From Janibacter sp. HTCC2649 (GTDB lineage Bacteria > Actinomycetota > Actinomycetes > Actinomycetales > Dermatophilaceae): a stretch of DNA of 64,000 nucleotides. The stretch's first letter is position 1. The number at the start of each line of letters is the position of its first letter. Made by a program: the position numbers and the translations under genes. The DNA is taken from positions 1 through 64,000 of the forward strand of contig NZ_CH672413.1 of assembly GCF_000152705.1 (NCBI RefSeq), in the 5' to 3' direction. The notes beneath the pieces are model-generated. The model did no database searches, was not told where the DNA came from, and worked only from the letters and a program-made list of their open reading frames with translations. Shown one piece after another: positions 33,092-56,448 of this stretch.

Positions 33092-33577
33092 GTGCATCCA
33101 TCAGCCGAAAGCGCGCTAGACCTCATCTCCACGCCGCGACCCCCGGCCAAGTTGCTCGACGCCAGTCGCGAGGCGTGGGATGAGCATGGCTACCCCCTGA
33201 CGTACGCGTGCTTCATGGCGCTCGTGGCTTTCGCCGACAAGTACGGCGACCAGGGGGCCGATGACGAGGCCGGCGTGGCCGTGATCCCGAGGCCACCGTC
33301 CGAGGTGATTATCTTGGCTGGTCGACGCCGCGGCGAAGAGGCGCTCGACATGCTCAACAGCCTGTTCACACGCGTCCGCGAGGCCGACCGCGCGCGCACC
33401 CAGGAACTGGCTCCAGGCCCCTCGTTGGAGGACTTGGACAAGAACTACAAGGGGAACGCCTCGTACCTGATGGCCTACATCGTGGGATCGGGAGTGGAGG
33501 CCCTGGTGGAAGAAGGCCAGGATGCCGAGCGAGTTCTCGAGTCGGTGGCGCAATTCCTCGAGGAGCTTTCGGGCTAA
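33092..33577 (+). CDS. hypothetical soluble protein
   Basis: A 161-residue acidic, helix-rich protein that I do not recognise. Features: an N-terminal SAESALDLISTPRPPAKLLDA, a conserved-looking YACFMALVAFADKYGD helix, a proline turn VIPRPPSEVIIL, and a C-terminal SGVEALVEEGQDAERVLESVAQFLEELSG helix. No signal peptide or membrane segment. TAAGGT six bases before the GTG start is consistent with a leaderless mRNA. It is the last gene with typical host composition before the island. Confidence 0.6.
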   Translation: MHPSAESALDLISTPRPPAKLLDASREAWDEHGYPLTYACFMALVAFADKYGDQGADDEAGVAVIPRPPSEVIILAGRRRGEEALDMLNSLFTRVREADRARTQELAPGPSLEDLDKNYKGNASYLMAYIVGSGVEALVEEGQDAERVLESVAQFLEELSG

Positions 33578-34000
33578 CCAGCCGTCGATCTACCGTTCGG
33601 CGCGAATCCGTGCAAGCGCCCCAAGCACATTGTGCGATCGAAAGCCAAGACGGGTCTGCCGGCCGCAGCCGAGGTGCTGATCTCCCGGAAGCATCCCCCG
33701 GCTGCAGTTGATCAAGCGCAAACGCGAAGCGGTAGCCCGGAAGTGCGGGCCACCGCTTCACGTTTTGAGGCGTTCCCCTTTTCCGGGGATGAGTCAGTCT
33801 CTCGTTTCAGCTTCCAGACGATCGAGCCCGACGTGCTTACATAGGGTCCGCATGTGAGGGCCTCGTTGCAGAATCAACCACACGCGCACGTCAGCTTGGG
33901 TATGTTGAGGTATCAAGAGCCATCCTGAGCCATCACATGACGCAATCTCTGATTTCGACTCAGCGTCGCTGAGGAGCTCTTCTCGACTCAAGGGGCAGCG
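33578..34000. other. left edge of the genomic island, with a terminator
   Basis: No credible gene. A hairpin at 33726-33759 (GAAGCGGT-A-GCCCG / CGGGC-C-ACCGCTTC, followed by CACGTTTTG) looks like an intrinsic terminator. GC drops noticeably from about 33.8 kb onward. I looked for a tRNA or an integrase attachment repeat and saw none. AAGGGG lies five bases before the TTG start of the next gene at 34001. Confidence 0.55.
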
Positions 34001-36673
34001 TTGAACGCGGAGTACATCAAGACCACGATCATCAACGACCAGAGGCAACGAAATGTCTCGCTAGATGTAGCTGCCGCGGAATTGATACGAGGCCTCGGGC
34101 TGGCGGATCGGTCGCCGGTAGACGCCGTGGTGCAAGCAATGCGCGAGGAGAGTCAGCGGCTTCAGTCGCTCGACATTCCGCAGGGGGTACATGCGGACGC
34201 CTACCGCGAGGTAATGACCGATGATGCCAAGGAAACTCAGTGGTACGTAGGTTCGCGAGATTCGGATCGCTACTGGGGGTATCTCCGGAGCCAAATCGAG
34301 GGCACTGGTCTTGCTACTGTCTTGCCAGACATCGACGTAGCGTCAAACAAGGTCGTGGCACATTTCGCTGACCCTGGAATCCGAAGGCTGAAGAAGAAGG
34401 GGCTCGTCCTCGGCTACGTGCAGTCCGGGAAGACAGCGAACTACGCGGCGGTGATGGCGAAGGCCGCAGATGCCGGCTATCGGCTGTGCATCGTCATGAG
34501 CGGAATGCACAACAATCTGAGGCGACAAACACAGGTCCGACTTAACCGGGACCTCGGTGTGGGCAACTGGAATGCTTTGACAACGGAGGACCGCGATTTC
34601 GGGGAAGTTCTGCACGGACAGGCTCTCCTCCAGAACCCACAGGCGCGGACGATCGCCGTAGTCAAGAAGAATCCGATGCGACTGCGCCGACTCCGTGACT
34701 GGCTTCAAGAAATCGACCCTGCAGTTCGGGCGCAAGCACCCATTCTGCTTCTCGACGATGAGGCGGACCAAGCCACGCCCAACTCGCTGGCGGCAAAGCA
34801 GGAGATGTCGAAGATCAACAAGTTGATTCGAGAAATATGGGCCGAGATACCCACGGGTTCGTACGTGGGGTACACGGCGACTCCATTCGCGAATATCTTC
34901 ATGGATCCCAATGATGAGACGGAGATGTACCCGTCTGACTTTATCTTGGACCTGCCGCGCTCCGACGAATACTTTGGCGCTGAGCGGATCTTTGGCCGGC
35001 AGAGCGTAGAGGACGCCGACGATCCTGAGCCCGGCCTAGACATGGTCAGGATGATTTCGGTCGCCGAGGCAACAAGTCTCCGCCCCCCAAGCTCCAGTCA
35101 GGACAGGGCCTCATTCGACCCAGACATGCCATCTTCTTTGGGTGACGCAGTCGTTTGGTTCGTGGTCGCAACCTGCATCCGCAGGTTGCGAGGACAGATG
35201 GACCACAGTTCCATGTTGGTCCACACGACGTCCTACGTCGCGCCACACTTCGCGATGCAAGGACGGATCGAGAGCATGATCTTTAAGCTTCGCCGCCAAC
35301 TGGAGGACGGGGACCTCTCAACGTTTCGTAAGTCCTTCGACGATGAGTCCGAGCGCGTGCCCGGCGTCACTCAACTCGGAATGCCTGCTTGGGACGACGT
35401 GACTTCCGTGCTAGTCGACGTCTTGGACGAAATCCGAGTTGTTGTCGACAACGGCCGATCCACAGATCGTCTTGACTACGGACGGCTTAGTGACAGTGGT
35501 CGACCGATTACGGAGACCGTGATAGCCGTTGGAGGTGGGACCTTGTCGCGTGGCTTGACGCTCGAAGGGCTCACGGTCTCGTACTTCACAAGGACGTCCA
35601 ACACCTATGACACTCTCCTCCAGATGGGCCGGTGGTTTGGATACCGTCCCGGCTACGAGGATCTCCCGCGGATTTGGATGACGAATGACCTGTCAGAGGA
35701 CTTCCAGTTCCTCGCGACGGTCGAGGAGGAGATCAGGATTGAGATCCGTCGGCTCACGGCGATGGGCGGAATCACCCCCAGCCAGATGGGCGTTCGTGTC
35801 CGGGCACACCCGGGTCGACTATCCATCACAGACCCGAAGAAGATGCACCACGCACGATTGGTTCAAGTGTCCTTCTCAGGTCAGCGGCATCAGACTTTCC
35901 TGCTCCACGAGAACGACTCCAGCGCTCTCTCCGCCAACATCGCTGCTGCTCGGGGCCTAGCAGCCTCGTGCCTATCCGCCTCGTTGCCAAGTGTGCAGGA
36001 TCGGGCACGTCGGCAGTTCAACGACGTCCCGGTTGGCGCCATTCTGGACTTCGTCCGGACGTACAAATTCCACCCGGACCAAGGTTTGCGGGCGGGCCAC
36101 ATCACGGATTGGATCGATCGTCACGCGCGAGCATCGAAGTGGAACGTCGTCTTCCTTGGCACGGAGAAGGAACATAGGGTCGATGGTCAAGTGGTGGATC
36201 TGGGCGACGTCGATCTTGGGTTCGAGGCGAACCTGCCCTTGGTAAATCGTGCCCCACTGCGCGACCCATCTGCTTCACGAGCCAATATCAAGGCGCTCCT
36301 GTCGATCCAGGACTGGGTAGCGGACCAAGATCGTGCCGAGGTCAGTCGAAGGAGAGCGACCGGCGAAAACTTCCCTGAGATCCGGCGGGCGATGGCCAAG
36401 GACGTCGGCCTATTGATCATTTACGGTGTCTCGCACCGCTCCACCCCCTTGCGGGGGGTCTCGCGGCGTCCGATGAATGCCGAGGTCCCACTCATCGGTG
36501 TCGGCATTGTGTTCCCCGAACTCGGAGAGGACGACCACGGGTCAGAAGGTGACTTCATCTCCGTTCAGCCCAGTTGGACTGCGCGAGTCGACGAGGAGGT
36601 CGAGGAGCTGCTCGATGACGACGAGAAATCAAACACCGTGGACGCCGTCGACCTCATGAGGGGTGGGTCATGA
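34001..36673 (+). CDS. Z1-domain superfamily II helicase-like ATPase
   Basis: First gene of the island operon; 890 residues. Helicase-type motifs are clear: Walker A in LVLGYVQSGKTANYAAV (Lys144), Walker B in ILLLDDEADQATPN (near 251), and GYTATPFANIFMD (near 291). The Z1-specific GGGTLSRGLTLEGL (near 516) and QMGRWFGYRPGYEDL (near 541) follow. Z1 proteins occur with MutL-like GHKL ATPases and nucleases in predicted restriction systems (Iyer, Abhiman and Aravind) and in the mza defence systems (Gao and colleagues). The TTG start is supported by AAGGGG; the stop overlaps the next gene by four bases. Confidence 0.9.
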   Translation: MNAEYIKTTIINDQRQRNVSLDVAAAELIRGLGLADRSPVDAVVQAMREESQRLQSLDIPQGVHADAYREVMTDDAKETQWYVGSRDSDRYWGYLRSQIEGTGLATVLPDIDVASNKVVAHFADPGIRRLKKKGLVLGYVQSGKTANYAAVMAKAADAGYRLCIVMSGMHNNLRRQTQVRLNRDLGVGNWNALTTEDRDFGEVLHGQALLQNPQARTIAVVKKNPMRLRRLRDWLQEIDPAVRAQAPILLLDDEADQATPNSLAAKQEMSKINKLIREIWAEIPTGSYVGYTATPFANIFMDPNDETEMYPSDFILDLPRSDEYFGAERIFGRQSVEDADDPEPGLDMVRMISVAEATSLRPPSSSQDRASFDPDMPSSLGDAVVWFVVATCIRRLRGQMDHSSMLVHTTSYVAPHFAMQGRIESMIFKLRRQLEDGDLSTFRKSFDDESERVPGVTQLGMPAWDDVTSVLVDVLDEIRVVVDNGRSTDRLDYGRLSDSGRPITETVIAVGGGTLSRGLTLEGLTVSYFTRTSNTYDTLLQMGRWFGYRPGYEDLPRIWMTNDLSEDFQFLATVEEEIRIEIRRLTAMGGITPSQMGVRVRAHPGRLSITDPKKMHHARLVQVSFSGQRHQTFLLHENDSSALSANIAAARGLAASCLSASLPSVQDRARRQFNDVPVGAILDFVRTYKFHPDQGLRAGHITDWIDRHARASKWNVVFLGTEKEHRVDGQVVDLGDVDLGFEANLPLVNRAPLRDPSASRANIKALLSIQDWVADQDRAEVSRRRATGENFPEIRRAMAKDVGLLIIYGVSHRSTPLRGVSRRPMNAEVPLIGVGIVFPELGEDDHGSEGDFISVQPSWTARVDEEVEELLDDDEKSNTVDAVDLMRGGS

Positions 36674-37656
36674 TCGACCTCGCGCAGGAGTTTGTCTATG
36701 TACAGAACGACTTGGTCGAGCTGGACGAGACCAAGCTGATCTCGCGCCTCACGGACTTCCACCTGCCCGCCGGCGCGTTTCGTGTGGCCGTGGACTCGGA
36801 ACACCACAAGCATGCACTTTTTCCCGTCGGCCTCGCGGTCCCCGAGATCGAAGAGAAGACTGCGGCGGTGTCGTGCAGGACGAGGGAGCTTGTTCTCGAT
36901 GGTCGGACCATGCGCTTCGTCGACCTTGAGTGCACTGACAGCTCGCTGGAGCTGGTTTTCGAGCACTTGGTCGCCGACGTCATCGAGCGGGTGGATGTTG
37001 ATCCCTCGAACCCCGGACGCTCTTGTCTTGAGGCCCTAACTGAATGGCGCGAATTGATGCGCGTGGCCAAAGGGTCTCTGCCAAGGGAGACCACTTTGGG
37101 CCTGATCGGCGAGCTGCAGGCGCTAGGTATTTTAGGAACCAAAGACCCCGAAAACGCTCTCATGTCATGGTCTGGTCCTTCACGCTCGACTCATGATTTC
37201 GTCCACGTGGGCCGCCACCTGGAGGTCAAGGCGACAGCCACGGTCGACGGGCAAACGATCCGGGTGAGCAATGTCGATCAATTAGACCCTGAGACGTCAC
37301 CAGAGGCCCTCCATCTCCTGGTAGTTCACTGCGCCCTCGACCCGGTCGCTCCCGACCTAGACCAACGAATCCGCGAACTCATTGCTCAGGGCTTCCCGAA
37401 AACCCGCTTGATCAAGGCTGTCGCCGATTACGGTTATGTCTTCGAGTCTGGCCAGGACGCTCCTCGGTTCGCAGTTCGTTCACTGCGCCTTTGGGAGGTG
37501 GATCATGACTTCCCGGGCCTGAGAGCGACCGACATTCCATTGAGTCGTCGCCCTGCCGTCACGAGACTGAGCTACGACCTCTCCTTGGCTGCTGCGCCTG
37601 AGCCCATTGTCGACGAAGTGATGTTGGGGGTGCTGGGCGGATGGCTAGACACCTGA
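36670..37656 (+). CDS. PD-(D/E)XK nuclease-fold protein (DUF4420-like)
   Basis: A 328-residue protein whose C-terminal half carries a nuclease-type core: Glu148 in LIGELQAL, Asp176 in STHDFVHVGRHLE, and Glu185-x-Lys187 in LEVKAT. This is the arrangement of PD-(D/E)XK enzymes. The overall pattern fits the DUF4420 family that accompanies Z1 and GHKL proteins. Its ATG overlaps the Z1 stop (ATGA) and its last 16 bases overlap the next gene, so translation is coupled. It would be the DNA-cleaving component; cleavage has not been shown. Confidence 0.82.
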   Translation: MIDLAQEFVYVQNDLVELDETKLISRLTDFHLPAGAFRVAVDSEHHKHALFPVGLAVPEIEEKTAAVSCRTRELVLDGRTMRFVDLECTDSSLELVFEHLVADVIERVDVDPSNPGRSCLEALTEWRELMRVAKGSLPRETTLGLIGELQALGILGTKDPENALMSWSGPSRSTHDFVHVGRHLEVKATATVDGQTIRVSNVDQLDPETSPEALHLLVVHCALDPVAPDLDQRIRELIAQGFPKTRLIKAVADYGYVFESGQDAPRFAVRSLRLWEVDHDFPGLRATDIPLSRRPAVTRLSYDLSLAAAPEPIVDEVMLGVLGGWLDT

Positions 37657-39848
37657 CTGAGGCGGAGCTGGAGCGGGCGCTCTCTCCCGTGCGCGAGCAC
37701 TTCTTCGGCGCGAGTGTCACCGTGAACACTGTGCTGTCCGCGCACCTCCGTGCCGCTGGATTGCACCCAAGCGGTCAGACGTGGCAGATGGCGAAGTATG
37801 CGATCGACCAAGACGGCTCGTTCGAAAATGCCGTCGCGATGGCAGGCGGAACCTCACCGACCACGACTCATGCCGATCCCCTGACGGAGCCCGTCGACGA
37901 AGTTGATCTGACGGATCCGGCAGACGTCCAGATCGAGCATGTCGACGTGTATCAGGAGATCCCGAGAGCTGCCCTGCAGACGTCTGCTCGCGAGCGGATG
38001 CCCACACCGCCTTTGGGTTCGGACGCCAGGCTCCAGTGGTTCCCAAAGCAATTCTCTGTAGGAGATATCGACGGTGACGGCGCGTCCCGCCTCCTCGGGA
38101 CACCCGATCTCGCCCCGGTGTCGGTTCTTGTTCGGGAGACTGCCCAGAACAGTTGGGATGCACGCGAACGCGGCCAGCGACTCGAGTTCACGATGAACCT
38201 TCGTCAGCTGACTGACTCCGAGCTAGATGTCCTGCGCGAACGTGTGTTCCTCGAGGACGCGGGACCCCTGCCGGTAGCGAGCTCACTCGATGGGTCGCCC
38301 GTGTGGGCCCTGGAAGTCTCTGACCGTGGTGCCAAGGGTCTGGGTGGGCCGGTCCGAAATGACCTGACGCCTCCGCCTGGCGAACCCACCAACTTCAGGG
38401 ATCTCATCCTCACGATCGGAACCCCCCGTGACGTTCACCTCGGTGGTGGCACTTACGGGTTCGGCAAGACGATCTCCTATACAACGAGTGAGCTTGGCAC
38501 CGTCTTGTTCTGGTCTCGAACAAGAACAGAGGGTGGCCTGCAACACCGCATCATCGGCTCAGCGTTCGGATCGAGCTACGACATGGATGGGCTTCGTTAC
38601 ACAGGCCGGCACTGGTGGGGGGTGATCCCAGACGACGGCATTCGCGTGGAGCCGCTCGTGGGTGAGTCCGCCCGCGTCCTTGGTGAGAACCTGTTCGAGC
38701 GGCACTTCGAGGCCGAGGAGACCGGCACGAGCCTGCTCATCCTCGCCCCTGTCCTTGGTGGAGACGACCGTGAGGAAGACGCCCATGCTCTCGTTGAATC
38801 CTGTCTCTGGCACTTGTGGCCCAAGCTGGTCAAGCCAACCAGTACTCGCGAGCACATGGAGATATCGGTGCAACTGAACGGTGTCCCGATTCCGCTACCC
38901 GACATTGGGACGCACCCGATTCTCTCCGCCTTCGCTGACGCACTGTCAGCGGTCAGGCGCAGTCAGGGAGAAGATGCCCCTGAGCCTGATCTGCACACTG
39001 AAGTCGTGCCGGTCGAGATGCAACGGCCGAGGTTGACACTGGGTCATCTCGCCATCACGCGTTTCCCCAAGGTCGAATGGGACGCCGGCGCGCGAGAGGT
39101 GGTTCCTCTCAATGAGCCCGTTTCGAACGTTGCTCTAATGCGGCACGACGCGGAGCTCTTGGTGAAGTTCCTCTCGCTGCCGAAGCTCGACTCACCCACG
39201 CTTCAGTGGTGCGCTGTGTTCAAGCCGCTCGAGGGTACTGACGACGCCTTCGCCATGTCGGAACCGCCGTCCCACGATGACTGGGTCGCAGAGGCTGTAA
39301 AGGACAAGGCGCAACGCCAAATCGTGAACGTGGCCATGCGTCGTATCCGTGAGTTAGTGGAGCAGGCGCTGGCTCCCGCGGTGACGGAGGGACCGGAGCC
39401 CACCTCTGGTAGCTCTGTCGTCGCGTTGGCGGACTCGCTTGGGCCATTGATGGGACCCGTCGGCGGGAGCGCGCCCGGCCGTCGTGGAACTACACCTCGA
39501 GGTCCGGGCGCACCTCGGCAAGCAAAGGTTCGCGTGTCCGAGTATTTGCTAGGTGCGCTGAAGGACGGGCGACGGCGCGTCGCGGTCCGCTGCCACTTGG
39601 AGGCTCCAGGGGCGACCACGCTGGAGGCAGAGGTCAGGGTGGGCGTTGAAGGCGGGGCAGCCGAAATCGATGATGCTGCCCGTCCGATCGGCTGGGTGCG
39701 CGGTCGCCCCGATCTCGACTCGGACACCCTTGCAATCTCCAAGGAAGGGCCGCGGTTGGAGCCTGGTGACGAGATCTGGTTCCTAGCTGAAGTCGAAAGC
39801 GAACTTCTCGCGGTCGTTGATGTGCGTCCTGCCCGGGAGGAGAAATGA
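37641..39848 (+). CDS. GHKL ATPase, MutL/MORC-type, of the island operon
   Basis: A 735-residue protein. The ATP-binding Bergerat fold is visible: N-box VRETAQNSWDARERG (Glu166, Asn170, Asp173), Asp-Gly box LEVSDRGAKGLGG (Asp228), and the lid/G-box HLGGGTYGFGKTISY (near 267-280). The first ~130 residues and the C-terminal ~330 are family-specific. Such ATPases are known from MutL, Hsp90 and MORC and form part of predicted Z1-containing restriction systems. Here they may act as an ATP-gated clamp on DNA (inference). The C-terminus is beta-rich. It overlaps the following ORF by four bases. Confidence 0.88.
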   Translation: MARHLTEAELERALSPVREHFFGASVTVNTVLSAHLRAAGLHPSGQTWQMAKYAIDQDGSFENAVAMAGGTSPTTTHADPLTEPVDEVDLTDPADVQIEHVDVYQEIPRAALQTSARERMPTPPLGSDARLQWFPKQFSVGDIDGDGASRLLGTPDLAPVSVLVRETAQNSWDARERGQRLEFTMNLRQLTDSELDVLRERVFLEDAGPLPVASSLDGSPVWALEVSDRGAKGLGGPVRNDLTPPPGEPTNFRDLILTIGTPRDVHLGGGTYGFGKTISYTTSELGTVLFWSRTRTEGGLQHRIIGSAFGSSYDMDGLRYTGRHWWGVIPDDGIRVEPLVGESARVLGENLFERHFEAEETGTSLLILAPVLGGDDREEDAHALVESCLWHLWPKLVKPTSTREHMEISVQLNGVPIPLPDIGTHPILSAFADALSAVRRSQGEDAPEPDLHTEVVPVEMQRPRLTLGHLAITRFPKVEWDAGAREVVPLNEPVSNVALMRHDAELLVKFLSLPKLDSPTLQWCAVFKPLEGTDDAFAMSEPPSHDDWVAEAVKDKAQRQIVNVAMRRIRELVEQALAPAVTEGPEPTSGSSVVALADSLGPLMGPVGGSAPGRRGTTPRGPGAPRQAKVRVSEYLLGALKDGRRRVAVRCHLEAPGATTLEAEVRVGVEGGAAEIDDAARPIGWVRGRPDLDSDTLAISKEGPRLEPGDEIWFLAEVESELLAVVDVRPAREEK

Positions 39849-40750
39849 CTAAGGCTCGGGTCTTTCCGCATCTGCGCGCCTCGGATACCGCCATTGAGTG
39901 GGGGGACTGGGTTGTGGTTAGAGAAGATGGTTCATCTGGGCCGGTGGAAGAGCGGCTCACGTCTTGGGACTACCACTCATCGGTCGCATTCGGCATAGTT
40001 CTTCGCGTTTCGGAGGACGAGCTTCTTAGCTCCGCCGGTTTCTCATCCCTTGCTGAATGTGACCTCACGGTGCTTGTCGACTGCCCCTCGACGGGCCAAC
40101 GAATTCACCGGCGAATATCTTTGCACGAGCTGGGAGAGGGTGAATCGACAGTCACGGTTGCAACGCCCCCTGGGGTCCTTGCGGACCGGGTGCGCCTGTC
40201 TGCCCACGTGGTGCTTAACCGCGCTCTATTGGCCTCGGGGAATAGGGCATTTCGTCCATCCTCGCGGCTCGCTGAATCTCCCAGCAAGACGGTTGTTCTT
40301 GAGGGGGAGCTCCATCGATTCCCCACGGAGACCATTAGCTTCTCGGCGATTCATATGGAGCCGGCGGCTTGGGCCGTCAGGCTGGACTACGGCAGTCTGT
40401 CTGACAGTTTCGTCGGGAGCGTACGGCTGCTGCTGAACGCTGACCATCCCGCGGCAGAGGCCCTCCTCGAAACGAGTGGTGACCGCGCCGCAATTTTGCA
40501 TTCGGTGTTGAGGATTGATGTTGCCCGGCAACTGATTGGAACCGTCGCCGCCGATGAGTTTCTCGATCTCGACGACGCCGACCCAATCGCTCTGGACGAC
40601 GGAAGTTTGCGTGCCGGTCTAGAGTCAATAGCGGCGACATTCCTTTCCATGGACTTGGCGTCGGCAATAGAAATGGCAAGACAGGATCCCTCGCGATTTG
40701 AACGCAACCTTCAAGTCGGATTTGAATTCTTGATGGAGGCAACCCAATGA
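39845..40750 (+). CDS. unknown component of the Z1/GHKL operon
   Basis: A 301-residue protein I do not recognise. It has no membrane segment and no obvious catalytic motif. It starts TKARVFPHLRASDTAIEWGDW, has a beta-rich middle, and ends in an acidic-helical part with ADEFLDLDDADPIALDDGSLRAG style text and a helix before the stop. It is coupled at both ends by ATGA overlaps, so it is very probably a stoichiometric partner of the GHKL ATPase, perhaps a scaffold or sensor. Codon use is less GC-rich than the host genes. Confidence 0.7.
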   Translation: MTKARVFPHLRASDTAIEWGDWVVVREDGSSGPVEERLTSWDYHSSVAFGIVLRVSEDELLSSAGFSSLAECDLTVLVDCPSTGQRIHRRISLHELGEGESTVTVATPPGVLADRVRLSAHVVLNRALLASGNRAFRPSSRLAESPSKTVVLEGELHRFPTETISFSAIHMEPAAWAVRLDYGSLSDSFVGSVRLLLNADHPAAEALLETSGDRAAILHSVLRIDVARQLIGTVAADEFLDLDDADPIALDDGSLRAGLESIAATFLSMDLASAIEMARQDPSRFERNLQVGFEFLMEATQ

Positions 40751-41511
40751 CAGGTTACCTGTATCCCCGACTGGCTGATGGGCACGCACTCGCTAGGTTC
40801 GTGGAGCTCCAGGAGATAGCTTATCAATCGATAGCCGGGCTCAGGGAACAAGCCAGGTTTGAGCACAACCAGGCCGCGCCAGTCCCCACCGGGGGAACGG
40901 TGGCCTCCGGGACGAAAATTTCCCAAGTTCGCACCGAGGTCATGACTCAAATGGCCCCGCTGATTAGTGAGAATGGGCACGTGGCTGGTCCTCATCGAAT
41001 ATTCGACTGGATGCTGGGGAGGGCCTTGTTCCACGGATTGCAGATCGTGGTGAGTGATGCCGCACACAAGTCGACGTGGAACTTTCTATCCACGTCAGTC
41101 TTCCCCGATCTGGTGTGGGCTCGGTTCCCGGACCCAAGTGAAGACCGTGTGCTCGGCGGGTCGAGGAACGTGCTGCGCCGAGCGTGGATGCGTTACGACT
41201 TGCTGAATGAACTGGAGGGCCATGGGGCCGAAGATCTGAACGAGGACGAGCTCGTCCAAATTACCGAGCGCACCGCTCTTGCTCGCAACCGGGGCCTAGC
41301 AGTGGCAGTCGCCCGTTCGGTCATCCGGCACGAGGGTCCCCGGCGGATGGAATACACGCGCGTCTTATGCAAGCGGGTCGTGTTCCTGACCGGCCCCCTC
41401 CTGCTTGACACTTTGTTGCCAGCGCAGCTCGACGAATTGGTGTCTGCTGTTGCGAAGGGGGAGCGATGGGAGCCCGGGGCCGATGGCCGACGTCAAGCGG
41501 GTGGGGGGTAA
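40747..41511 (+). CDS. last gene of the Z1/GHKL operon, possibly DUF6339-like
   Basis: A 254-residue protein, mostly helical, coupled to the previous gene by ATGA overlap. Segments such as HRIFDWMLGRALFHGLQIV, TSVFPDLVWARFPD and GSRNVLRRAWMRYDLL resemble the small uncharacterised proteins (DUF6339-type) seen next to Z1 operons; the family match is tentative. No nuclease motif is evident. The final 15 residues are Gly/Arg-rich. It faces the vsr-like gene on the opposite strand, 55 bases away. Confidence 0.65.
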   Translation: MTGYLYPRLADGHALARFVELQEIAYQSIAGLREQARFEHNQAAPVPTGGTVASGTKISQVRTEVMTQMAPLISENGHVAGPHRIFDWMLGRALFHGLQIVVSDAAHKSTWNFLSTSVFPDLVWARFPDPSEDRVLGGSRNVLRRAWMRYDLLNELEGHGAEDLNEDELVQITERTALARNRGLAVAVARSVIRHEGPRRMEYTRVLCKRVVFLTGPLLLDTLLPAQLDELVSAVAKGERWEPGADGRRQAGGG

Positions 41512-41566
41512 GCAACACCCATGGTGCTAGGCATGGCGGGCATCCCGGGATTCAGGCGCCACCCAA

Positions 41567-42061
41567 TCATGAGCCGTAGTCGCGCAAGGCCTCGGTCACC
41601 TTGCAAACAGCGTGTTCGAGAGGTTCGTGCTCCCAGATGCGGACAACCGTCCAACCCAGTTCTGCCAGTTTGATGTTCGTGTCGGCGTCCCTCGAACTAT
41701 TTGTCGAAAACTTCCAGAGCCACCACTCACGGTTCGCCTTGGGAACGACGCAGTGGAGTGGGCATGCGTGCCAAAAGCATCCGTCGACGAAGACCGCCAC
41801 CTTTTGACGGGTGAAGGCAAGGTCGGCTCGCCGCCGAGGCAGGCCCGGTATCAAGTACTGAACCCTGAACCTGAGGCCGTGACGGTGCAGTTCGCGGCGC
41901 AGGCTCAGCTCGGGCTTCGTGGCGTCGCGGGCTTGGCTAGAGAACCGTGCGCTTAGGCGCGCTGAAGGAGGGACCCGACTCGGCTCCATGCTGCCATTGA
42001 GAGGTTCCTTGGCCCCACCGTCAGTGCCGCCATTCACACTGTTAGCCTGGCACCCGTCCAT
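41567..42061 (-). CDS. vsr: Vsr-type very-short-patch-repair endonuclease
   Basis: A 164-residue protein with the Vsr core. RDATKPELSLRRELHRHGLRF is followed by RRADLAFTRQKVAVFVDGCFWHACPLHC, in which the Asp, Phe-Val-Asp-Gly-Cys-Phe-Trp-His block and downstream Cys/His match the zinc-bearing catalytic region. WTVVRIWEHE closes the domain. Vsr enzymes nick T:G mismatches that arise by deamination of methylated cytosine. The true start may be ATG 41989, since the first 24 residues are low-complexity. It is divergent from the cytosine methyltransferase gene, as expected for a functional pair. Confidence 0.88.
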   Translation of the reverse strand: MDGCQANSVNGGTDGGAKEPLNGSMEPSRVPPSARLSARFSSQARDATKPELSLRRELHRHGLRFRVQYLIPGLPRRRADLAFTRQKVAVFVDGCFWHACPLHCVVPKANREWWLWKFSTNSSRDADTNIKLAELGWTVVRIWEHEPLEHAVCKVTEALRDYGS

Positions 42062-42077
42062 CTAGTTGAGGAGCGCC

Positions 42078-43589
42078 GTGAGCCCGGTTCCAGTGGTTGA
42101 CCTGTTTGCCGGTCCGGGCGGGTTGAACGAGGGGTTCTCCAGCCTTCTGCGCCCCGACGGCGATCAAGTTTTCCGTGCGGTGTCGTCGTTCGAGATGGAT
42201 GCGCGCGCGTGCGACACGCTCAGGCTCCGGTCCGCGGTCCGGTCGCTTCGTGGTTCGACTGAGGGCCTGTCCTTCTACTCTGGATTCCTCAATGGCGAGA
42301 TTTCGTGGAGTCAGCTGATCGAACAGCGTGAGGTCGCAGCTGGACTGCGTGACGCCGAACGACACGTCCAGCAGGTGGAGCTTGGACCCGCGAGCCGCGA
42401 CGCGAGTAGTGATGTCATCCGAGACGCTCTGTCCAGTGCTGGCGGGGGGCCGTGGGTGCTGATAGGTGGGCCACCGTGCCAGGCCTATTCACTGGTGGGG
42501 AGGGCGCGGCGCACGAATGACGCCACGTTCGGGGACGACGTCAAGCATTTTCTCTATCGCGAGTATTTGGACATCATCGAGCGGCATCGCCCCCCCGTTT
42601 TTGTGATGGAGAACGTCAAAGGTTTGTTGTCACACACCCACGGTGGAGCGCACCTCTTCAGTCGCATCATAGAGGACCTGTCCACCGCGGGTGATGGCTA
42701 CGAGATCCGTTCGTTTGTCGTGGACCCCCACGCCAGTCTGCAACCGACCAAGGCGCTTGCACCGAAGGACTATGTGATTCGCTCTGAGGAGTACGGGGTC
42801 CCGCAGAAGCGGCATCGGGTGATCTTGTTGGGCGTGCAATCGGGACTAACCGGGCGGTCATCCCGAATCCTCACGTCGGCGGCTGGGCTGAGCGTTGAGG
42901 CTGTGCTGGCGGACTTGCCGTCTGTGCGCTCCCAGATCAGCCCAAAGCGGGAGGACACCGTCGGCCTCTGGCGTTCCATCCGTTCGGAGGCCCTGCAACT
43001 CGCGGGGGAAAGAAGACACAACCTTCCAGTACCTGCTTCGACGGGCTTTGCCCGAGGCGGGAAGTCTGCAGGTATGGCCGACGGCATTTTGCAGGCCTGG
43101 CTCACGAACCGAAGTGGTGGGGCAGTGACCCAGCATGAGGCGCGATCTCACATGCCCACCGACCTCATGCGGTACGCGTATCTCGCAGCCAGGGCGAAGC
43201 AGGGGCACATCGTGAAGGTCGATCAGTTGCCCGAGGCGTTGCGCCCCAACCACGCCAACATCGGTGGCCCAAATACTCCATTTTCAGATCGATTCCGTGT
43301 GCAGCGACTGAATGATCCCAGCACCACGATCACTTCGCACATCTCGAAAGACGGTCACTATTACATTCACCCTGACCCGAGTCAGATGCGAAGCCTAACC
43401 GTACGAGAAGCAGCCCGGCTACAGACATTCCCGGACGACTACTTCTTCTGTGGTAACCGGACTCAGCAGTACCATCAGGTCGGAAACGCCGTGCCACCAT
43501 TTCTTGCCCGGCAATTGGCCGAAGTCGTAGCCGACTTCTTGGGAGTGGGTGCTGACGGCGGACGGGGGCTGGCCAAGGGTGATCAGTAG
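42078..43589 (+). CDS. DNA (cytosine-5) methyltransferase
   Basis: A 503-residue C5 methyltransferase. Motif I is VVDLFAGPGGLNEGF, motif IV with the catalytic Cys is GGPPCQAYSLVG (about residue 134), motif VI is VMENVKGLL, motif VIII is YGVPQKRHRVILLG, and motifs IX/X appear as RLNDPSTTIT and QVGNAVPPFLA. A variable target-recognition region lies between VIII and IX. GTG 42078 is preferred because GAGGAG lies just upstream; TTG 42066 is an alternative. Together with vsr and the Z1/GHKL operon it suggests a restriction-modification or related defence locus. Confidence 0.94.
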   Translation: MSPVPVVDLFAGPGGLNEGFSSLLRPDGDQVFRAVSSFEMDARACDTLRLRSAVRSLRGSTEGLSFYSGFLNGEISWSQLIEQREVAAGLRDAERHVQQVELGPASRDASSDVIRDALSSAGGGPWVLIGGPPCQAYSLVGRARRTNDATFGDDVKHFLYREYLDIIERHRPPVFVMENVKGLLSHTHGGAHLFSRIIEDLSTAGDGYEIRSFVVDPHASLQPTKALAPKDYVIRSEEYGVPQKRHRVILLGVQSGLTGRSSRILTSAAGLSVEAVLADLPSVRSQISPKREDTVGLWRSIRSEALQLAGERRHNLPVPASTGFARGGKSAGMADGILQAWLTNRSGGAVTQHEARSHMPTDLMRYAYLAARAKQGHIVKVDQLPEALRPNHANIGGPNTPFSDRFRVQRLNDPSTTITSHISKDGHYYIHPDPSQMRSLTVREAARLQTFPDDYFFCGNRTQQYHQVGNAVPPFLARQLAEVVADFLGVGADGGRGLAKGDQ

Positions 43590-44080
43590 GCAAACACGGC
43601 GATTCCATCGAGCTCGAGGTGAACGCCCGACCATTGGCTCAGATTTTCGAGGAACTCACTGATTTTCGGGGCGGCTGCGGAGCCCTTGTAGTGAGCTGGC
43701 ACGACCACGGCGGCGGTGCGGACACTGCTGGCCGCAGCCATCTTAAGGACGCCAACGAGGGCCTCGTTGTTGTTCCATGCACGTCCAGCGTGAACCGAAA
43801 CACCCAAGCCTGAGATCGAGTGCAGGGCGTCAATCGACACTGATCCGGGTCCCAGACGCATTGCGGCGGTGACGAGCAGGTCGCCGTTGACTGGGATGCG
43901 GAACCCCTTGTCGGCGAGCCGGTCCGCGACTGCGGCAGCGACGACCGGCTTCCTCAACCCTCCATCCGCGGCCTCCACCCTCCCGCGTATCCCGTCGACC
44001 ACCGCGTCCAGAGCCGACAAGGCGCTAAGGACGGGGGGTGCGGCGCTGATCCCCCCTCCGAGGTGGATGTACGTGTACAC
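43583..44080 (-). CDS. unknown 165-residue protein beside the methyltransferase
   Basis: Not recognised with confidence. It overlaps the methyltransferase 3' end by seven bases, tail to tail. The C-terminal half runs as alternating beta/alpha: a GLGVSVHAGRAWNNNEALVG segment, then TAAVVVPAHYKG and VHLELDGIAVFAY. I see some resemblance to the C-terminal parts of restriction-type nucleases, but a canonical (D/E)-x-K is not evident. The position argues for a cognate restriction component or an accessory factor; this is inference. Confidence 0.5.
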   Translation of the reverse strand: MYTYIHLGGGISAAPPVLSALSALDAVVDGIRGRVEAADGGLRKPVVAAAVADRLADKGFRIPVNGDLLVTAAMRLGPGSVSIDALHSISGLGVSVHAGRAWNNNEALVGVLKMAAASSVRTAAVVVPAHYKGSAAAPKISEFLENLSQWSGVHLELDGIAVFAY

Positions 44081-44260
44081 AGTTGCTAGCTTGCCAGCTA
44101 GGCATTAGACGTAGGCGATGAAATCGCCTATTTGCTTGTGAGCGCCAGCGCGAACAACGTCGTCGCGAGGGCAATGTGGGACTCTTCACGCGTCATCCAC
44201 CCAAGTCGTAAAAACCTCGTTCGGCAGCCTGTGAACCCCCACTGATGTCATTATGACGCG
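44081..44260. other. intergenic, right part of the island core
   Basis: No gene seen. It holds the divergent upstream region of the 165-residue gene, with AT-rich runs near 44085-44120 (TAGCTTGCCAGCTA, an imperfect inverted repeat) and no ribosome-binding site of note. The next small ORF begins at 44261. Confidence 0.4.
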
Positions 44261-44407
44261 ATGAACCCCCTGTTTGCTTGGATAGTGTCTCTGATTTTGA
44301 CCATCTTCCTTCTGGCTGCCGTGGGCGTTGGCCTTATCGGCTGGCTACTAGGCCTTATTTTCCTGCCGATTATCGGGGCCGTCGTAATCATGACGGTCAC
44401 CAGCTGA
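44261..44407 (+). CDS. small hydrophobic membrane peptide
   Basis: A 48-residue ORF, nearly all hydrophobic: MNPLFAWIVSLILTIFLLAA then GVGLIGWLLGLIFLPIIG and VVIMTVTS. Two membrane helices are likely (residues 5-25 and 27-46) with almost no charge. No clear ribosome-binding site precedes it. It sits between the methyltransferase-side unknown and the SIR2-like gene. Small membrane peptides in such positions can be toxin-like or simply chance ORFs; I cannot distinguish. Confidence 0.4.
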   Translation: MNPLFAWIVSLILTIFLLAAVGVGLIGWLLGLIFLPIIGAVVIMTVTS

Positions 44408-44556
44408 AGATTTCGGCCCTCCGACCGTGCGGAGAGCCGTCGCGAAATTGCGCGGTTTAGGTCGGCTCAGGTGTGCTCACGACGCAAGTCTCGGCTTCTG
44501 TGACCAGTTCTCGTGACCTTCTGGCGTAGCTACCAGCCGGGAGAAGCTGGTCGGTC

Positions 44557-44820
44557 GCTGAACGATTGGGGGACATACCGAAGAGGCAGGAGGGCGGCCA
44601 GCGGGCGCCCAGCGCGGACGACTGTGATCTCATCGTCGAGATCCTCCAGGGGCGCCGGCTTCCGCAACGCAGCCTGCTCGCGGAAGCCGACGAGCGAGAG
44701 GCGCGCGCCGATCGACTGATGGTCGAGCAGTCGACGATCCTCAAGGTGACCCGACTCATCCACCGGGTGGAAGTGCGTGGGGGAGCGGGCAGTGGGAAGA
44801 CGGTTCTGACTGTGACTCAG
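44557..44820 (+). pseudogene. decayed internal fragment of the NERD/helicase gene
   Basis: About 264 bases closely resemble the middle of the intact gene at 49407-51083 (its 49880-50143 part), roughly 88 percent identical by eye. The stretch includes DDCDLIVEILQGRRLPQRS and RGGAGSGKTVL, the Walker A motif, after which similarity stops abruptly at a TTCTATGAG junction. It has no start region of its own and no continuation, so it is a truncated remnant. Confidence 0.85.
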
Positions 44821-44888
44821 TTCTATGAGATCGGGTGGATAAGGGCATTGAGGTCCGGTTGGGGCTTCGTCGCTGCCACGATGCGAGG

Positions 44889-46436
44889 GTGAGCGTGCGC
44901 GACATACCAAGTCCATCAGCCCCCAAGCCCGTCGCTAGTTTGAACGACCCACTCGTTGGGCCCGATTCCCCCCTCGAGGGTGGGCATCTCTTCATGGTCC
45001 ACGGCAGGATCGAAGACTTGACGCACGACGCGGCCATCGTTCCGGTGGATGAGTTCCTGTCGTTCAACCGGATCTGGGGCCCCCTCCTCGGAGAGACCTG
45101 GCCCTCGGCACCCGCGACGTGGGCACAGGGATGGGGACGAGTCGAGGACGGCTCCTACTGGCTTGTCCAGGTCGGAGACGGTAACTACGCAAAGGTGCTG
45201 CAGCGCGTCACGTGTGCTGTCGACGACGTCTGCGAGCAGATTCGGAAACCGATCGGCGGACGGCAACGCCCTTTGCTCGCACTTCCCGTCCTCGGAGTCG
45301 GCAGGGGAGGGCATCATCACGAGCCGGGGCGTGTGCTGAAGCTTTTGGTGGAGCACTTGGAGAGCCTCGCCCTGTCGCATGAAATCGACATTGTTCTGGT
45401 CACGCCCGAACCCTCGGTCTACGCTGCCGCCCAGTTTGTGCGTCGCGGAACATCGGCCCTGCCTCCACGGATGGAGCAGCTGGCAAGAGCGATCGGAGAC
45501 CGTGCGACGAGGGACGAGCTCGCGTTGTTCATCGGAGCTGGCGCGAGCATGGCAGCAGGGTTGCCGTCCTGGACGGAGCTCATCCGCCGATTGGCCGTGG
45601 GCGTGGAAGGGGCCGACACGGAGGCGTTTGCGGCGCTGGGTGCCACGGATCAGGCCGAACTCATCCAGTCATATGACGTTGAGGGCTTCCAATCCCGAGT
45701 TGCCGATATCGTTGGGACGGCCGAAAGGCCTGCGCTGGTCCATGGCCTTCTCGCCGGTTTGGGCGTTCGGAACGCAGTGACCACGAACTACGACACCTTC
45801 TATGAGCAAGCCGTTGAAGCATCAGGCCGCGAGATGAAGAGCGTGCTGCCCTGGCAGTCGGCTGTCGGAGCCCAGCGCTGGGTGCTCAAACTCCACGGTG
45901 ACGTCAGCAAGCCGGAGAGCATCGTCCTGACTCGGCGTCACATGGTTCGCTTCGATGCCGCGAATCGACCGTCCGCGTCGTTGCTCCAATCGGTGCTCCT
46001 GACCAAGCATCTGCTCGTCGTGGGGACCTCGCTGACAGACGACAACGTGTTGCGGCTGGCCCACGAGGTGCAGGAGTACAGAGAGAAGTACCGGCCCGGT
46101 GTTGAGGAGCCGTTTGGGACACAACTCGATGCGACCGACGGTGTGGGGAGACTGCGTGCGCGGCTCTGGGCTGGTCAGCTGGACTGGGTTCACTTGCAGG
46201 ACTTTGGTACTGAGACTCCGCCTCGTGCGCTCGAACTTCTCCTTGACCGCGCCGGAGCACATGCGAGTGGCGACGCACCTTGGCTTCTGGACGATCGGTT
46301 CTCTGGCCTGTTCAACGACCAGGCCGACAAGGATCTGGCGGACCGGGCCCGGGGCCTCCTCAGTGAAGCGAAGGCGCGTGATTCCGCGATGTGGGAACCG
46401 TTGGTTGCCGCTCTCAACAGGCTCGGCGGTGTGTGA
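44889..46436 (+). CDS. SIR2-family protein with macro-like N-terminal domain
   Basis: A 515-residue protein. Residues about 30-190 resemble a macro-like (ADP-ribose-binding) domain: VHGRIEDLTHDAAIVPVDE and LALPVLGVGRGGHHHEPG, then a DIVLVTPEPSVYAAAQ strand. From about 210 a SIR2 domain follows: FIGAGASMAAGLPSWTEL, NAVTTNYDTFYEQA, LKLHGDVSKPESIV and LVVGTSLTDDN. SIR2 proteins with this architecture act as NAD-depleting effectors in several defence systems (Thoeris ThsA, DSR). The GTG start at 44889 has CACGAT six bases upstream, the same leader as the intact helicase gene at 49407. Downstream are remnants of that helicase and a DraG fusion. Confidence 0.85.
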   Translation: MSVRDIPSPSAPKPVASLNDPLVGPDSPLEGGHLFMVHGRIEDLTHDAAIVPVDEFLSFNRIWGPLLGETWPSAPATWAQGWGRVEDGSYWLVQVGDGNYAKVLQRVTCAVDDVCEQIRKPIGGRQRPLLALPVLGVGRGGHHHEPGRVLKLLVEHLESLALSHEIDIVLVTPEPSVYAAAQFVRRGTSALPPRMEQLARAIGDRATRDELALFIGAGASMAAGLPSWTELIRRLAVGVEGADTEAFAALGATDQAELIQSYDVEGFQSRVADIVGTAERPALVHGLLAGLGVRNAVTTNYDTFYEQAVEASGREMKSVLPWQSAVGAQRWVLKLHGDVSKPESIVLTRRHMVRFDAANRPSASLLQSVLLTKHLLVVGTSLTDDNVLRLAHEVQEYREKYRPGVEEPFGTQLDATDGVGRLRARLWAGQLDWVHLQDFGTETPPRALELLLDRAGAHASGDAPWLLDDRFSGLFNDQADKDLADRARGLLSEAKARDSAMWEPLVAALNRLGGV

Positions 46437-46664
46437 GGCGGGAACGCCACTCCTACCAACCGGGGTACCGCGACCACCAATGACGGTCGCGGCGCGGTGA
46501 ATACTCACTGCCACCTGGGGAGTCCGTGAGTTCGCGAACCGAGTCACGCGCAAGTGTGTCGAGCACCCACGCGAGTTCGTGCCGACTGATGAGGTCGAGC
46601 GGGAGTTGTGACGCGCCGTGGTTGGCGCCCAGAAGTGCCCTGCGACGGCACCGACGGAGTCTCC

Positions 46665-47047
46665 ATGTGGGAGACCGTTCTCAAGCAGGGTGAGCCTGAC
46701 TGGACGGCGCTCGCCAACGTTCGGCTCACGGACGAGGCGAAGGACCATGAGACGGACCTCATCGTGCTGATGCCCGATGCCGGCATCGTGGTGGTCGAGG
46801 TCAAGGGTGGAAGCGTGGCGGTCGATCCGGTGACGGGGGAGTGGCGGATTGCGAGCGGTGGCCGGCCGCGCGTCGTGCATCCGGTCGATCAGGTGCGGGG
46901 GACGAAGTACGCACTGAGGAAGTATGTCGAGCTCGACCCGCGGTGGCGAAACTCGATTCGCACGCGCGTGCGGTTCAGTCATGCGGTTGTCGTGCCGTTC
47001 ATGAGCTCGGGGAGAACTTCGCGACGCTGGACTGTTCGCGCTGGATG
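46665..47047 (+). pseudogene. decayed N-terminal fragment of the NERD/helicase gene
   Basis: About 380 bases match the 5' part of the intact copy (49465-49846), about 90 percent identical by eye. They include the NERD catalytic segment DAGIVVVEVKGGSVAV and the VRGTKYALRKYVELDPRW block. A one-base deletion near 46998 shifts the frame (compare GTGCACTTCACCGCG with GTGCCGTTCATGAG), and the copy stops at about 47047. No intact start or ATP-binding part remains. Confidence 0.85.
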
Positions 47048-47129
47048 GCTTCGCCGACACGCAGAGGCCCGGTCGGCGAGAAAGAGCCGTGACCGGCGAG
47101 TCAGCAGCGCGGCGGTGGATTGTCGCCCT

Positions 47130-48578
47130 TCAGGCACTCGACGCCACCTCCCAGAGGAGTCCGCTGCCACGTGTGGAGGGCATCGTTGCTATTGCCTGCA
47201 CTGCATCCTCGCGGTTGACTCCCCGGCGCGCGGAATACCGAACGGCAACTGACGGCGTGCGCTGCTCCGCGGCGGCGCAGTGGACCAGGACTCGCTCGCC
47301 CTCGGCTCGCAGTGCCTCGATGGCGTCAGCCGTGTCGTCGAGGACGAAGTCGAGGTAGGCGTTGGCTGTTGGGTCGTCGCTGTCGACGAGCCACACAGTG
47401 ATGTGATCCTCGGGCGCGATGCCCGGAGCAGGGACGTCCCGAATGCCAACGCGACAGAGGCTCACGACGGCGTCGACACCCAGTTCCTCGGCACGTCGGA
47501 AGTCGCGCCAAGTACCAAGAAGGACACCGTCGTCGTAGGGGTGGGGGACCGCCATGGGGGTCCAGGCCCCGGCATCTCGGTACTCCATGTGCGGGATCGC
47601 GGGCCACGCATCGTTGTCCACGCAGCCTCTGGCTGTCGTCACGGCAACTCCCACGAGGTCGGAACTCCGGAGTCCGGGCCAGCCGTGCACACGCCGGCGC
47701 CATCGCGCGGGGAGACCGGAGGCCCCATAGCGAGCACCGAGGAGGGCACCGGCAATCGCTGCAACGGTGTCTGTGTCGTTGCCGGCCTGGATGGCTGCGC
47801 TCAGCGCCCGCTGCACGTGGAGCGGCGAACCGGAACCGTCGTCCGTCGAGGTGGTCGCAGCCCAGGCGCACTGGAGTGCGGCCACGGTGAATCCGTTGGG
47901 GGAGAACCGACTTGGGTTTGCGCCCGCGGCCGCCTCGATCCATCCGGCCCATTGTTCCTGTCGGTCAGCTTCCAAGAGGTGCAGCCCCTGGCCGAGGTCG
48001 AAGCGACCCTCGAGGACGGCAATGCGCACGGCCTCCGACCAGAGGACGCACGAGTCGACCGCGAGCGGGTCGGGGTGCGTGAGCTCAGCGACGGATCGGG
48101 CAGCCGCTGATGTAGCCCCCGGGTCGTCGATCCGGGTCAGGCCGACGATGCCGGTGCGCATGAGGGCGCCGTTCCCCGCGGAGTGGCTCGTCGACGACGC
48201 GTGGGCCCGGCTGGCTGCATGGAGCCGCTCGGACGGTGAGCCGGTCAGCCCTCTTGCAGCGGTCAGCACCGCGCGAGTCTGGTTGCCCACGTCACCCGGC
48301 CCAGCGGCATACCACTCCTCGAAGCCAGCTGCGATCTCGTCGAGCGCGGTGGTGCTGGTGAGGTCGGCGCCCCACCCAGAGACGCGTGCGATGCACGCCG
48401 CCATTTGCGTGTCGTCGCTCCACTCGCCGGGCGCGTAGTTGCCCAGCCCACCGCCAAGCATCTCGGGCTCCCCGATCGGAGGAGTGCTGAACTCGTACGG
48501 CACGCCGAGTGCGTCCCCAATCGCCTGACCGAGCAGCACCCCGGCCCCACGGTCCTCCTGCTGTGGTGTCAGTTTCAT
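47130..48578 (-). CDS. ADP-ribosylglycohydrolase fused to a dual-specificity phosphatase-like domain
   Basis: A 482-residue protein. Residues 1-330 are a DraG-type (ARH) fold with GQAIGDALGVPYE, GEWSDDTQMAACIA and the distal GNDTDTVAAIAGALLGARYG metal motifs, expected to remove ADP-ribose. From about 345 a phosphatase-like domain follows, with the signature HCAAAEQR (Cys434, Arg440, the C-x5-R loop) of tyrosine/dual-specificity phosphatases. A strong AAGGGAGGG precedes ATG 48578. Both activities are inferred from motifs. Neighbours include a macro-like/SIR2 protein, so an ADP-ribose theme is plausible. Confidence 0.88.
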   Translation of the reverse strand: MKLTPQQEDRGAGVLLGQAIGDALGVPYEFSTPPIGEPEMLGGGLGNYAPGEWSDDTQMAACIARVSGWGADLTSTTALDEIAAGFEEWYAAGPGDVGNQTRAVLTAARGLTGSPSERLHAASRAHASSTSHSAGNGALMRTGIVGLTRIDDPGATSAAARSVAELTHPDPLAVDSCVLWSEAVRIAVLEGRFDLGQGLHLLEADRQEQWAGWIEAAAGANPSRFSPNGFTVAALQCAWAATTSTDDGSGSPLHVQRALSAAIQAGNDTDTVAAIAGALLGARYGASGLPARWRRRVHGWPGLRSSDLVGVAVTTARGCVDNDAWPAIPHMEYRDAGAWTPMAVPHPYDDGVLLGTWRDFRRAEELGVDAVVSLCRVGIRDVPAPGIAPEDHITVWLVDSDDPTANAYLDFVLDDTADAIEALRAEGERVLVHCAAAEQRTPSVAVRYSARRGVNREDAVQAIATMPSTRGSGLLWEVASSA

Positions 48579-48633
48579 GACCCTCCCTTATCGTCCCGCT
48601 GAGACTAGGACTCGGGAGTGACAGGTCCACTGG

Positions 48634-49308: not shown

Positions 49309-49406
49309 GGCCCGAGCGTCGCATGGGCTCTGGCCCGGCGACGGTCATTCAGCCACTTTTGCCCGGTCTGCCTGTGCCTGTCGGTAACGCCTGCCACGAT
49401 GCGAAG

Positions 49407-51083: not shown

Positions 51084-51236
51084 CGGATCAACTGGTCGAC
51101 CTGCCACACGAATTTGAGCCACCGCCAGACTGGGGTCGTCCTGCCGCCCCTATTGAGCTTGTTTCGCGATTTTCCATATTGGGATGAGCCAACTGAGGAG
51201 GATACGGATGATGTCAACTGCGTTGGAAGGGCAGGC

Positions 51237-52037: not shown

Positions 52038-52094
52038 CAAGGAGCACGTCATGCGAAGAGGTCGTGCGCAGCCCAGTAGTGCTGGAGCCTGACC

Positions 52095-52571: not shown

Positions 52572-52603
52572 ACGGCGTCACGAGGCACGCGAGCGCGGTT
52601 CAA

Positions 52604-53212: not shown

Positions 53213-53341
53213 GTCGGCCTCCTGTGTGAAAAGCATTGGGAGAGATGGCAACCGGAGGCGACGCCGAGCCGGTCGAGATTCATTGTGTCGGTGACCACTG
53301 ACAGTCACCGTTCCTCACTGGCCTGACAGACGTGCCGCATG

Positions 53342-53715: not shown

Positions 53716-53907
53716 GGTGAGGCGGTGCCGCTGTTCAACCGATCGTGATGGGCAAGAAGGTGGTTCTTGCGAGGCTGGACACGTACATCGTCGTGTCCAC
53801 CGAATCACTGAGGTCCACAGACGAGGAGGCCCGAAGGATGGCCCCGGCTGTGCGGCCGCTTCTCCCGAACACGGCCACGCGGCCCTGCGCGCTCCTATGC
53901 TCAACAG

Positions 53908-56442: not shown

Positions 56443-56448
56443 CCGGCA

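Follow-up and report, generated by a model that had tools for sequence, protein, structure and literature searches.

Several descriptions of related gene sets are available. Iyer et al. (2008; PMC2292703) predicted that operons combining a distinct superfamily II (SFII) helicase, a restriction endonuclease (RE)-fold nuclease, Dcm, Vsr and MORC or paraMORC proteins are restriction systems; the parts of that text compared here also give an ExxxH motif for paraMORC2 and link eukaryotic MORC proteins to DNA methylation. A 2022 paper (PMC9523054) lists, in the sections considered, a putative Type I system made up of Z1, a PD-(D/E)XK protein (printed DUF4220), a C5-cytosine methyltransferase, three further genes and repair endonucleases, and a mza-like Type II with AIPR; its Type I section names neither the three further genes nor a mechanism. 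In an excerpt of PMC5379612, three unclassified proteins and an EcoRII-like enzyme accompany Z1, DUF4420 and Dcm on an island of Corynebacterium. Here we analyse a locus of this kind in the first 64,000 nucleotides of contig NZ_CH672413.1 of Janibacter sp. HTCC2649 (the window), where genes for a Z1 ATPase, a DUF4420 nuclease, a GHKL ATPase and two further proteins, X and Y, together called the core, stand beside genes for Vsr and a C5-methyltransferase (Table 1). We lean towards reading it as a restriction-type defence system that depends on ATP and spreads laterally, and whose specificity an exchangeable methyltransferase-Vsr module may provide.

The gene set corresponds closely to the earlier descriptions. 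With the operons of PMC2292703 the locus shares the paraMORC2 ExxxH motif, the distinct SFII helicase, the RE-fold nuclease, Dcm and Vsr, while the text parts compared make no mention of X and Y. The Z1, DUF4420 and C5-methyltransferase core of Type I is present with no difference from the sections of PMC9523054 used, and GHKL, X, Y and Vsr would take the places of the three further genes and the repair endonuclease, a match by description alone. The original prediction, made from the sequence, had tied the locus to the operons of Iyer et al. and to a restriction or defence role; the ExxxH motif and the gene content agree with this as far as the two texts were compared. It had also called the content odd, with no AIPR, two unrecognised genes, and methylation and repair added, but according to the same part of PMC9523054 this is normal for Type I, and AIPR is a mark of the mza-like Type II. 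The locus thus belongs to a kind already predicted, for which our literature searches (open-licence papers only) found no functional test; DUF6339, the family of Y, had no mention in the open-licence papers searched. What is new here is the place of X and Y in the core, the uncoupling of core and methyltransferase, the fusions of Y to methyltransferase or EcoRII-like parts, and the occurrence of GHKL-X-Y without Z1 and DUF4420.

Other known systems are more distant. Mza (mzaABCDE; in part after PMC9523054) has Z1, DUF4420 and a GHKL protein in common with the locus, but its MzaE is an AIPR protein, of which there is none among the nine proteins scanned, and the Mza models stay far below their curated cut-offs (MzaC 379 of 1500 bits for P0001, MzaD 75.2 of 420 bits); membership in Mza was therefore rejected. 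In the sections of PMC4267653 considered, CglI and NgoAVII likewise combine a Z1 motor with a C5-methyltransferase, and their ATPase is active on unmethylated sites, but they have three genes only and their nuclease is a phospholipase D (PLD) type with a B3 reader. DISARM differs by drmA and drmB, which were not found among the nine proteins scanned; of these only the methyltransferase resembles a DISARM model (DrmMII). The PADLOC candidate PDC-M33 gives weak matches of GHKL to its A component (27.4 bits) and of some Y proteins to C (up to 20 of 46 at E values up to 1, P0005 not among them), and B matched none of 67 X proteins. A PADLOC search for PDC-M33B and C in the own and chosen genomes gave nothing, though control genomes were equally silent, so that this is no proof of absence.

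The five core frames overlap in turn by 4, 16, 4 and 4 bases. Open reading frame (ORF) calls and family scans bear out the original list of five linked plus-strand genes, a vsr gene on the minus strand, a C5-methyltransferase gene and a 165-residue frame; genes were called with a simple ORF score, and start positions are approximate. Conservation was followed in the best 80 of 315 relatives found by a genome-collection scan with the GHKL alignment, a sample biased toward kin of the window that covers Actinomycetota, Proteobacteria, Chloroflexi, Cyanobacteria and others. GHKL is present in 80, X in 78, Y and Z1 in 77 each, DUF4420 in 76, Dcm in 65 and Vsr in 61; all seven genes occur together in 59 of the 80. 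Since the five core genes are all found in 73 of the 80 relatives, with identical order and strand in 73 of 73 complete loci (median gap -4 bases), the arrangement is not due to chance, and X and Y are core parts of the system. Some gaps come from contig ends (L038, L081, L092, L093), whereas true absences are found in L040 and L043 (no Z1 or DUF4420) and L075 (no DUF4420). L040 has a NOV_C protein upstream of GHKL-X-Y; no C5-methyltransferase was found in its genome, and the L043 genome gave only a match below the cut-off.

The original prediction had named an occurrence of its two unrecognised genes apart from Z1 and GHKL genes as one result that would speak against it. Of 394 genomes of the class, 14 (the own one among them) gave a match to X, and in 12 of the other 13 it stands together with GHKL, Y and Z1. 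In ten of these 12 the fetched stretch further contains DUF4420, Dcm and Vsr, all three of which are missing in L017 and L020; the thirteenth match (L012/L025) covers 101 residues at E 1.2e-4, has no locus genes within 17 kb and is probably spurious. GHKL-X-Y occurs without Z1 in L040, L043 and the genus relative G419, so X and Y are tied to GHKL more than to Z1. In G419 the trio, G'-X'-Y', adjoins Dcm and Vsr, and the stretch fetched contains neither Z1 nor DUF4420; single profile comparisons show its homology to GHKL, X and Y, with probabilities of 99.6, 89.7 and 96.4% (E 9e-24, 1.8e-6 and 1.3e-9), and four unrelated control comparisons gave 0.25% or less. L071, too, carries a second GHKL and Y of the G'-X'-Y' type. 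GHKL-X-Y is thus a module in its own right. Near the core of L037, L072, L082 and L099 there are also another Z1 gene and a protein of the AIPR family (tested with Pfam in L037 and L072), an arrangement that would suit a site, and perhaps a methyltransferase, used jointly by Type I and mza-like systems.

The catalytic parts of the core are well preserved. In Z1 the SGKT and DDE-D residues are kept in 82 of 82 aligned relatives and QMGRWFG in 82-83 of 83; in DUF4420, E148, E185 and Q204 are kept in 82 of 82 and D176 and K187 in 81 of 82. With residues so nearly invariant across 82-83 relatives, both parts look active. In the GHKL protein E541 and H545 of EPPSHDDW, invariant in alignment A1 (11 sequences), fit the ExxxH motif given for paraMORC2 in the part of PMC2292703 compared. 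For the first ~130 residues of this protein (37641-38030, plus strand), only 8 of the 80 relatives have matches that start before residue 10. Searches of solved structures by sequence with P0001, A1 (the GHKL alignment), A4 and A5 gave nothing better than E 0.15, and a PHROGs search with X, Y and GHKL gave nothing.

In family scans X and Y of the window had matches of E about 0.06 only, but both have confident AlphaFold2 models. The X model (pLDDT 93.0, pTM 0.71) begins with an Ig-like beta-sandwich and continues into helices; its best Foldseek match is the Wzt carbohydrate-binding domain (1.7e-05, TMq 0.28), and immunoglobulin-like domains match as well, with TMq <0.3 among the 50 matches listed. 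The Y model (pLDDT 94.2, pTM 0.89) had no PDB match in Foldseek (best E 1.2 in PDB, 0.22 in BFVD). Y of the window reaches DUF6339 at E 0.06, and as 9 of 15 homologues scanned (3 of 5 and 6 of 10) pass the DUF6339 cut-off, its sequence identifies it as a divergent DUF6339 protein; several arginines are conserved among aligned relatives. Fusions of Y to a C5-methyltransferase occur in six loci, all within one ten-locus clade (L019 and L024 Pfam-tested; L078, L088, L091 and L104 by our own profiles), and Y of the other four loci of that clade has an unassigned 247-residue tail. In L097 the tail of Y shows homology, in sequence only, to the N-terminal part of EcoRII-like enzymes (34.6% over 133 residues, 1.5e-15). 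Solved-structure searches with this tail gave nothing; a role as B3-like DNA reader is conjecture based on the EcoRII structure. Ten long Y proteins were scanned against Pfam, which assigned no further domain to their tails. A family of ~1053 residues adjoins the long form of Y (L018:8453-11614, L021, L023, and L089 on the other strand); the L018 member is a UvrD helicase with a PD-(D/E)XK part.

Core and methyltransferase evolve differently. For distances and tree the loci L063, L067, L083, L094 and L102, which duplicate class-sample genomes, were removed (they remain in the counts of gene content and order); the core tree was built with FastTree only, from the five concatenated core proteins of 70 loci, and methyltransferases were clustered at a single threshold of 0.40 identity times coverage. 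The core proteins co-diverge (pairwise distance correlation r 0.81-0.94), whereas core against methyltransferase gives r 0.32-0.38 (2080 pairs). On the core tree there are 20 changes of methyltransferase cluster, as opposed to a mean of 41.7 (range 35-46) in 200 shuffles, so some inheritance of the methyltransferase remains. Well supported neighbours with swapped methyltransferases are L041/L044, L031/L032, L035/L049, L068/L095 and L065/L106, and further L059 against L015 and L062, and L033 against L034, L036 and L052. The L068 enzyme (cluster D3) is close to PDB 3me5 (4.5e-184), which we take to be an E. coli-type Dcm, and is accompanied by an EcoRII-like enzyme, while the L095 enzyme is of another type (cluster D0, not Dcm-like); no other copy of the L095-type gene was found in the L068 genome, where the only match is 38% over 64 residues inside its own methyltransferase. 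L103 has a core related to that of L068 (identity 0.78 for Z1, 0.64 for X, 0.56 for Y) but, like L095, another methyltransferase type. Vsr tends to follow the methyltransferase, its sequence identity being 0.48 in 27 swapped pairs against 0.70 in 25 kept pairs. Tree and distances together show that methyltransferase and Vsr form an exchangeable module that is uncoupled from the core.

It was also considered whether X or Y sets the specificity and varies along with the methyltransferase. This candidate was rejected: neither shows excess divergence in 29 swapped pairs (residuals +0.015 and +0.011; +0.003 and +0.004 in kept pairs), and the residual signal of Y is only weak. Partial Mantel tests (48-70 loci) against the methyltransferase, with Z1 and GHKL controlled, gave in 65 loci r 0.142 for Y (p 0.001), 0.120 for Vsr (p 0.0015), 0.066 for X (p 0.04) and 0.035 for DUF4420 (p 0.25). 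Without clusters D2 and D4 the Y correlation stays (0.147) and that of X falls (0.033).

The methyltransferase is nearly always close to the core. Where the core is flanked by 4 kb or more on both sides (50 loci), a C5-methyltransferase lies within the stretch in 45 and Vsr in 43; in L037, L072, L082 and L099 the methyltransferase lies at the stretch edge or ~1.3 kb beyond (contigs matched by number). The idea that loci without Dcm are methylation-free was rejected, since the absence mostly reflects stretch length. An HATPase_c_3-type family is found in 13 of 16 D1 loci (two members Pfam-tested) and an EcoRII-like family in 6 of 8 D3 loci (four proteins from four loci Pfam-tested). Among 19 neighbour families, each in at least 3 loci, none is concentrated in D0 except a three-locus ORF family overlapping Y, so DUF4420 is the likely nuclease in D0 loci. 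Note that at one alignment column, 11 positions ahead of an invariant E, the window Vsr (41567-42061, minus strand) has F, whereas M is found in 66 of 67 aligned Vsr proteins.

How might such a system work? The kept set, order and strand of the core, its intact motifs, the nearby methyltransferase and Vsr, the swaps, the Y-methyltransferase fusions and the patchy distribution in the genus are what make us lean towards the restriction-type defence system proposed above. Z1, DUF4420, the paraMORC2 GHKL, X and Y would form a five-subunit effector complex that tracks along DNA and cuts it; by analogy to CglI, as described in part in PMC4267653, the Z1 protein would move on DNA, the GHKL protein may close as a clamp, and DUF4420 would be the part that cuts. 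Judging by their families, the methyltransferase would mark self DNA and Vsr would repair the T:G mismatches that arise from the methyl mark by deamination. The least certain step is that the core has no fixed specificity of its own and that the module, docked through Y, supplies it; we put this forward tentatively. A restriction effector that borrows its specificity through a DUF6339 protein from a docked C5-methyltransferase is likewise a possibility we regard as rather doubtful. The suggestion of the original prediction that the locus is a methylation-guided variant is plausible. If the borrowing is real, one methyltransferase-Vsr swap would re-target both modification and restriction, with a MORC-type machine unrelated to BREX. 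In BREX, PglX is proposed to re-target modification and restriction in such a manner.

Several observations weigh against the proposed reading. The residual correlation of Y with the methyltransferase is small in all partial Mantel runs (r 0.09-0.15, p 0.001-0.013), and without cluster D2 that of X is as high (0.136 for X, 0.119 for Y); DUF4420 tracks Vsr (r 0.179, p 0.003, 65 loci), which the proposal leaves unexplained; and the 2080 pairs are not independent. L046 has a full core, yet no C5-methyltransferase was found in its draft genome. The L095 methyltransferase is split over two ORFs, so that the L068/L095 pair alone is not clean and the argument is carried by L103 and the other swaps. 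Finally, unrelated methyltransferases could share one recognition sequence, the specificity in L068 being assigned by analogy only. This leads to classical restriction-modification, in which the core reads a fixed sequence that all swapped methyltransferases methylate (isospecific replacement). The recurrence of swaps among few clusters (D0, D1 and D3 make up 45 of 70 loci) and the near-constant vicinity of a C5-methyltransferase are in its favour, but we judge it improbable: L068 combines a Dcm-like D3 enzyme with an EcoRII-like one, L095 has a D0 enzyme unlike Dcm, and Vsr, expected to match the site of the methyltransferase, is less similar in swapped than in kept pairs. Classical systems have effector and methyltransferase of one specificity that evolve together; of these two features the comparison covered joint evolution, and the two do not co-diverge.

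Nor do we expect, with a slightly lower likelihood still, that two independent systems merely share an island, the core defending without reading methylation beside a mobile Dcm-Vsr(-EcoRII) module. The EcoRII-like family of the D3 loci, the Dcm-Vsr pairs that accompany other effectors at the same site in G419 and G421, and GHKL-X-Y without Z1, DUF4420 or Dcm in the stretches of L040 and L043 are what one would then see, but a C5-methyltransferase lies beside or near 49 of 50 well-flanked cores, and Y is fused to it in several. Very improbable, in our view, is a self-contained repair kit in which deaminated methylcytosine is corrected by Vsr, the MutL-like ATPase, the helicase and a MutH-like nuclease, irrespective of methyltransferase specificity. 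It would account for the indifference to methyltransferase type, and no MutL exceeded the cut-off in 8 actinobacterial genomes tested; however, one did in 7 of 7 proteobacterial genomes, Dcm occurs without Vsr in the stretches of L030, L053 and L097, and neither the patchy distribution nor the variable site fits such a role.

Since 2008, ATPases of the MORC type in prokaryotes have been predicted to belong to restriction systems; we found no mechanism in print for this branch. The locus offers two defined subunits with confident models and its relatives offer natural methyltransferase swaps beside related cores, so that the question which part reads DNA becomes directly testable. It may also bear on eukaryotic MORC proteins, given their link to DNA methylation in the part of PMC2292703 compared.

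The distribution of the locus suggests mobility. Of 98 relatives searched, 4 have Y; among the 9 genomes of the genus it was found in the own one only, whereas nrdJ, beside the locus, is present in all 9. The alignment with the genus relative G417 ends at window position 33576 and its next collinear part starts at 60287; a single 75% match, to 53888-55875, falls outside this order. The same site holds Dcm, Vsr and G'-X'-Y' in G419, and an EcoRII-like enzyme, Dcm, Vsr and large helicase-type genes in G421; from these sequences the nrdJ-side site looks like a defence hotspot. Measured in 2-kb steps, the guanine plus cytosine content of the locus stretch is 58.6-62.7%, lower than the 65-71% that prevail in the window.

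Table 1. Features of the locus in the window (X, P0004; Y, P0005)
Feature	Coordinates	Strand	Evidence
Z1-domain SF2-like ATPase (motor), P0001	34001..36673	+	Pfam Z1 2.5e-65
DUF4420 PD-(D/E)XK nuclease, P0002	36670..37656	+	Pfam 1.7e-39
GHKL ATPase, paraMORC2 kind, P0003	37641..39848	+	ExxxH motif; Pfam: no match
X, P0004	39845..40750	+	AlphaFold2 beta-sandwich (Ig-like) and helical part
Y, P0005, divergent DUF6339	40747..41511	+	AlphaFold2 all-helical; 9 of 15 homologues scanned pass the DUF6339 cut-off
Vsr mismatch endonuclease, P0006	41567..42061	-	Pfam 3.2e-13; TIGR00632 99.9 bits (cut-off 97.85)
C5-cytosine methyltransferase, P0007, cluster D0	42066..43589	+	Pfam 1.6e-46; best PADLOC model DrmMII 7.3e-96
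165-residue ORF, P0008, membership doubtful	43583..44080	-	one homologue, in L034
Stretch varying within the genus at the nrdJ-side site, contains the system and other genes	33577..60286		alignment with G417

The weakest item of the locus is the 165-residue ORF P0008, for which the family scans gave no family above chance. Its single homologue among 94 stretches searched (30% identity) lies in L034 at 12752-13222, where the pattern GRAxNNN...VxPxxYK recurs; a 177-residue family of L015, L052 and L062 resembles it vaguely, by eye.

Other genes of the variable stretch and the genome deserve a short mention. A SIR2_2-domain protein of 533 residues (2.1e-21; 44835-46436, plus strand) resembles ThsA models and is perhaps a separate defence gene; ~30% homologues lie near the same core in L030 and L057. 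Within the same stretch there is an ADP-ribosylglycohydrolase (3.5e-48; 47130-48578, minus strand), with a phosphatase match below the cut-off. Elsewhere in the own genome (G000 C1:2634846-2639423) a second C5-methyltransferase (527-residue frame) lies ~3 kb from a weak MutL-like GHKL match.

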